Below, piece after piece: positions 42,150 to 42,653 of a DNA stretch of 64,000 bases. Below the pieces are notes generated by a model. It saw nothing but the letters and a program-made list of their open reading frames with translations, was not told the origin of the DNA and did not search any database. This DNA is from Desulfoglaeba alkanexedens ALDC. Its GTDB lineage: Bacteria > Desulfobacterota > Syntrophobacteria > Syntrophobacterales > DSM-9756. The translations under genes were made by a program, and so were the position numbers. Position 1 is the stretch's first letter; each line of letters opens with the position of its first letter. Location of the stretch: NCBI RefSeq assembly GCF_005377625.1, contig NZ_CP040098.1, positions 2,163,501 to 2,227,500 of the forward strand, in the 5' to 3' direction.

Positions 42150-42193
42150 GTGGATTCCGTTTCCTGAAACCGACGAACCCAACCGTCCTGCGA

Positions 42194-42514
42194 TCAGCAG
42201 CAGCTGCAGGAGGTTCCGCACCCTCCACCGGTTCCAATGGGAACCTGGCAATCGATCCTGAAACCGGACATCATGCCGTAATCCACGTAATCCACGGTCA
42301 AGGCCTGAGTCAGATCCATCAGAGCTTTTTCGACAATCATCGTGAAACCGTTGACCTCAAACACTTCGTCATTGTCGTTAGGTTCGTCCAGAACCATGGC
42401 CAACGATGATCCGCTTCACCCTCCCTGTTGGAGGAAAATACGAATGGGGTGTATTTCCTTCCCCTCGAAATACTCCTTCAGAATCTCTTCAGCTTTGGGA
42501 GTCACCTGAACCAT
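42194..42514 (-). CDS. HesB/IscA-like selenoprotein (in-frame UGA read as selenocysteine)
   Basis: The frame from ATG 42514 (GGAGAT seven bases before) reads VQVTPKAEEILKEYFEGKE, then IRIFLQQGG. A TGA follows at 42418-42416, codon 33, and the frame continues without shift into SGSSLAMVLDEPNDNDEVF and a Cys-rich end CGTSCSCC. In HesB/IscA-like proteins this position is the conserved metal-binding Cys of the GGC(S/x)G loop. The UGA therefore sits exactly where selenocysteine replaces Cys in the known HesB-like selenoproteins. A SECIS-like hairpin lies just downstream. The product is 106 residues with U33. Ordinary gene finders would report only the 69-residue C-terminal piece. Role by family: Fe-S or metal handling. 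Confidence 0.88.
42375..42406 (-). promoter_or_regulatory. Bacterial SECIS-like stem-loop
   Basis: On the minus strand, downstream of the UGA, GGTTC (42395-42391) and GAACC (42385-42381) form the apical stem with loop TGGAC. TCGTTG (42406-42401) pairs with TAACGA (42380-42375) as an outer stem, with a 5' bulge GCCAT. The loop begins 26 bases after the UGA and has G in its second position. Both agree with the bacterial SECIS model. Confidence 0.8.
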
Positions 42515-42548
42515 TTCAATCTCCTCTCATGGTGTGGTTTGTGCCTTG

Positions 42549-42577
42549 CATTTAGTCACAACCCGTCGTGGTGTCAA
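42549..42577 (-). promoter_or_regulatory. Sigma-70 promoter candidate for the selenoprotein gene
   Basis: Minus-strand TTGACA (42577-42572), a 17-bp spacer and TAAATG (42554-42549) lie about 35 bases before the start codon. Confidence 0.6.
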
Positions 42578-42653
42578 GGAAAAGGCTGAAACGGGCGGGA
42601 AGATGCCGACAAAGGATCGGGCTCCCCCGGGAGCGGGAATGCTCCTTCTTGAA

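Follow-up and report, generated by a model that had tools for sequence, protein, structure and literature searches.

The minus strand of the window, by which we mean the whole analysed stretch of 64,000 nucleotides of the Desulfoglaeba alkanexedens ALDC genome, carries a gene that almost certainly encodes a HesB-like (IscA_HesB_Se) selenoprotein, in which an internal UGA is decoded as selenocysteine (Sec). The features of the locus are collected in Table 1. The earlier note had described a single frame that is broken by the TGA at codon 33 alone, and the translation of the frame agrees: the encoded protein reads MVQVTPKAEEILKEYFEGKEIHPIRIFLQQGGUSGSSLAMVLDEP...CGTSCSCC, and the terminal stop codon of the gene is a UGA too. 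An AGGAG-like motif, the same or similar, is also present 5' of the ATG in near relatives of the gene. The terminator that had been claimed to follow the full-length frame is present as a pattern, shuffled sequence yielding 0.8 such sites. The claim of a minus-strand promoter fared less well. The TTGACA hexamer is exact (42577-42572), but the -10 element TAAATG matches at only 3/6 positions and the promoter scan reported no site. An Rfam scan of positions 42150-42650 of the window matched no family.

Table 1. Features at the HesB-like locus (positions are those of the window)
Feature	Position	Strand	Basis
HesB/IscA-like selenoprotein gene (probable), 106 residues, Sec at residue 33	42514-42194	-	open frame with TGA read as U; NF038090 and Pfam Fe-S_biosyn above cut-offs
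In-frame UGA (Sec33) at codon 33	42418-42416	-	aligned with first conserved Cys of IscA
TTG-started frame of 69 residues, 3' of the UGA	42403-42194	-	
Bacterial SECIS upper stem-loop, GGTTC (42395-42391), loop TGGAC (42390-42386), GAACC (42385-42381)	42395-42381	-	pairing kept and codon co-variation in Sec members; lost in Cys paralogs
Optional outer stem of the SECIS hairpin, TCGTT/AACGA	42406-42402 with 42379-42375	-	pair counts, fold
Ribosome-binding site (Shine-Dalgarno) AGGAG, 6 nt 5' of the ATG	42525-42521	-	sequence
Weak promoter-like element, TTGACA, 17 nt, TAAATG	42577-42549	-	sequence; under scan threshold
Intrinsic terminator-like hairpin and T run, 3' of the full-length frame	42149-42127	-	terminator pattern scan

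When the UGA was read as a residue, the protein scored 116.3 bits with the NCBIfam model NF038090 (IscA_HesB_Se), against a curated cut-off of 85 and over profile positions 1-101 of 101; the query also had its terminal stop translated to a residue, so that one extra letter lies outside the match. A six-frame search of the genome with the same model gave 109.1 bits at this locus. One family model therefore spans both flanks of the UGA, on each of which HesB-like sequence had been claimed. The Pfam model for the A-type fold (PF01521, Fe-S_biosyn) also scored above its gathering cut-off (43.2 versus 26.3 bits). The cut-off of TIGR01911 (HesB_rel_seleno) was not reached (33.7 of 66.35 bits), nor were those of the IscA, SufA and ErpA equivalogs (41.8 of 150.6, 38.3 of 136.2 and 33.6 of 117, respectively).

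Among solved structures, AQ_1857 and IscA of E. coli are the most similar in sequence, and the UGA aligns with their GGCSG / SGCSG cysteine. This is the first conserved Cys, in line with the claim that the TGA replaces the conserved Cys of the GGC loop. A structure model that was built on an alignment of four sequences (mean pLDDT 77.5) predicts an A-type (IscA/SufA) fold, matching the IscA and SufA structures (1r94, E 1.4e-7; 1s98, TM 0.73), and has a flexible Cys-rich C-terminal tail (pLDDT below 50). Paired C-terminal cysteines are found in 99 of the 106 distinct Sec members of the family that were read. Directly at the Sec, the protein reads USGS (42418-42407), whereas UxGP, the motif that is given for HesB-like selenoproteins (TIGR01911; PMC13188914, table 1), is found in each of the other 105 Sec members.

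The presence of selA, selB, selC and selD had been inferred in the earlier note, and within the genome (3.37 Mb, a single contig) all four were found, each above its cut-off. These are the tRNA-Sec (selC, anticodon TCA, 75 bits), SelB (379 bits versus a cut-off of 242), SelA (623 versus 268) and SelD (380 bits; G000:C1:409171-410097). Absence of selB or tRNA-Sec had been named as grounds for refutation; both are present. SelD of this genome is a selenoprotein as well, with an in-frame UGA in AGAGUASKIG, and this constitutes independent evidence that the genome decodes UGA as Sec at another gene.

A search of genome contigs with the protein recovered three relatives, and the search with the NF038090 family model was far more productive: it gave matches above the cut-off in 125 of 297 genomes of the same phylum, mostly with exactly one TGA within the match. 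The nearest named relative found was that of a Syntrophobacteraceae MAG. An alignment with HesB-like proteins had been proposed as a check, and in the 131 family sequences that were read (119 distinct, as a few loci were fetched twice) the site of Sec33 is a UGA in 115, spanning many genera, a Cys in 16, and no other residue. A general recoding of UGA, read here as another amino acid such as Trp, has a negligible probability and nothing specific to recommend it beyond a frame that is open if the UGA is read through, given that the HesB-like gene itself terminates at a UGA, that Cys is the sole alternative seen at the site and that tRNA-Sec and SelB are present. Against close relatives, pN lies far under pS both upstream of the UGA (pN 0.08-0.23, pS 0.57-0.99) and downstream of it (pN 0.15-0.29, pS 0.56-0.78), a pattern which indicates that the gene is under purifying selection on both flanks.

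The published model of the bacterial SECIS (PMC13188914) specifies an apical loop of 3-9 nt, a stem of 4-16 bp, a distance of 16-37 nt between UGA and loop, a G among the first two loop nucleotides and an MFE of at most -7.5 kcal/mol. The hairpin identified here, which lies 20 nt 3' of the UGA, falls within all of these constraints, having a loop of 5 nt with a G at position two (followed by another G), a stem of 5 bp, a UGA-to-loop distance of 25 nt and a fold energy of -9.0 kcal/mol when 45 nt from the UGA are folded (range -9.0 to -12.6 kcal/mol). A SECIS-like stem is by itself weak evidence; a comparable 5-bp Watson-Crick stem, with one of the first two loop nucleotides being a G, accompanies 276 of the 1737 TGAs of the window (16%).

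The family provides considerably more information. Across the 106 distinct Sec genes the stem is paired in 95.8% of the cells, versus 12-64% after shifting the partner strand by 1-4 nt, and the middle pair (25-35) is C-G in 83, T-A in 19 and T-G in 4 genes and broken in none. The codons involved vary together, Ala GCT occurring with Glu GAG (81 genes), Val GTT with Glu GAA (17) and Val GTC with Gly GGA (2). Moreover, GCT makes up 81 of the 83 Ala codons at the stem position but only 90 of the 589 in the remainder of these genes. Most of the pairing is gone from 13 Cys members, in which GCC is the favoured codon. The relatedness of the sequences inflates the pairing counts, yet it is no easy explanation for why the Cys paralogs, and the other codons of these genes, behave differently. 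Judged by this conservation and co-variation in 106 relatives, which is far beyond chance, the inner hairpin is a genuine SECIS.

The outer stem that had been claimed in addition is present at this locus but not conserved across the family, each of its pairs being kept in 42-86 of the 106 Sec genes, and on these counts it was rejected as a family-wide feature. In four Sec members (L116, L120, L122 and L125) the usual SECIS stem is broken, and GTC ATG GAT CAG is found versus GCT CTG GAT GAG in the others; folding suggests that these have a variant SECIS with a shifted hairpin of the CCATG/CATGG type.

As an alternative, the UGA could have arisen by nonsense mutation of a gene that once had a Cys codon at this site, or could be a sequencing error, with a pseudogene or two short products as the outcome. 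The 69-residue frame downstream of the UGA would accommodate a second product, but that product would be missing the strands with which the fold begins, as well as the conserved Cys/Sec. Considering that 115 relatives from many genera have the UGA at this codon and that purifying selection extends downstream of it, a pseudogene or a separate downstream gene is excluded as the main reading. The SECIS, conserved in the UGA forms only, and the complete Sec machinery argue in the same direction, and we regard this explanation as very improbable. The decoding of the UGA as Sec in the HesB-like gene is strongly supported by the sequence evidence, and the claim of a HesB/IscA-like selenoprotein with UGA and SECIS was borne out by a family score over the cut-off and by the presence of the Sec genes.

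In 13 genomes of the phylum, Sec and Cys copies of the gene lie side by side, about 0.4-1 kb apart (loci L023, L024, L025, L031, L038, L041, L044, L093, L119 and L129-L132). The SECIS pairing is mostly absent from the Cys copies. The two copies are possibly selenium-responsive isoform pairs, which are found in methanogens, or duplications en route to the loss of Sec. Clustering of the gene neighbours at 107 loci gave no clear recurrent partner or pathway pointer: the two largest clusters appear to consist of frames that run antisense to the HesB-like gene itself, and local synteny (UbiB-like kinase, DnaJ-like) is confined to near relatives.

With respect to the mechanism, SelB with Sec-tRNA(Sec) would bind the hairpin downstream of the UGA, and the insertion of Sec at residue 33 would yield a 106-residue protein with the A-type (IscA/SufA) fold. 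In IscA, three cysteines bind iron or Fe-S. The selenol would take the place of the first of these, and the flexible Cys-rich tail CGTSCSCC may provide the remaining ligands. On balance, we lean towards a role in which the protein binds Fe-S clusters and passes them on, or performs a similar task with metals, in this anaerobe. The literature describes the molecular function of the HesB-like selenoprotein family as unclear (PMC11097638, PMC13188914), and a disruption mutant of the Methanococcus maripaludis HesB-like selenoprotein still fixes nitrogen (unpublished observation cited in PMC11097638).

There is an appreciable, though less than even, probability that the protein is a real selenoprotein with another task, namely that of a thiol/selenol redox enzyme, or of a heavy-metal or selenium binder, acting via the selenol and the tail cysteines. 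According to a review of selenoproteins in prokaryotes, most of the uncharacterised families are expected to have redox roles (PMC13188914), and the flexibility of the Cys-rich tail in the model is consistent with such an activity. However, the predicted fold is that of IscA, the Sec lies where IscA has a metal-ligand Cys, and the protein has neither a thioredoxin fold nor a UxxC motif, which speaks against this reading.

Pfam PF01521 is weak on this subfamily, missing some of the copies that NF038090 finds, and claims of absence are limited accordingly; within that limit, the model detected no A-type (IscA/ErpA-like) protein in the genome other than the HesB-like selenoprotein. PF01521 has 16 matches in 39 genomes of the order; 14 of these matches contain the UGA, and none of the 16 scored like canonical IscA, SufA or ErpA, so that the order appears to be without ordinary IscA/ErpA. 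Several of these genomes are without any PF01521 match, and the HesB-like protein may thus not be essential. It could be that the Sec protein is the organism's only A-type carrier, which would make A-type Fe-S trafficking in the cell rely both on selenium and on a selenolate as cluster ligand, but we consider this unlikely. A lineage with a selenoprotein as its apparent sole A-type protein would be a place to approach what HesB-like selenoproteins do.

HesB-like selenoproteins were among the 25 bacterial families of a 2006 catalogue, with examples from Syntrophobacter (including Syntrophobacter fumaroxidans), Desulfovibrio and Geobacter, and Sec-to-Cys conversions with a remnant SECIS were described for them (PMC1794560); they also appear in a 2026 review (PMC13188914). 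The gene described here adds one ordinary member to this family, which was recognised about twenty years ago and for which NCBIfam keeps a separate model. In addition, it offers a clean example of how a bacterial selenoprotein can be verified from sequence, as the codon pair behind the hairpin is fixed in the Sec form and no longer constrained in the Cys paralogs.

Compared with the A-type Fe-S carriers IscA, SufA and ErpA, the protein is alike in its predicted fold, in the position of the first conserved Cys and in the Cys-rich C-terminal tail, but it has Sec in place of that Cys and scores far under the equivalog cut-offs. TIGR01911, the model that the 2026 review applies to HesB-like selenoproteins, fits it less well than NF038090, with which it shares the full-length match, the Sec at the same site and the Cys-rich C-terminus, and from which it deviates in the USGS sequence, the sole such case among the 106 Sec members. 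With the HesB-like selenoproteins of the literature (PMC1794560) it has the fold family, the Sec in the GG(C/U) loop, the bacterial SECIS and the occurrence in Deltaproteobacteria in common, and no substantial difference was seen.
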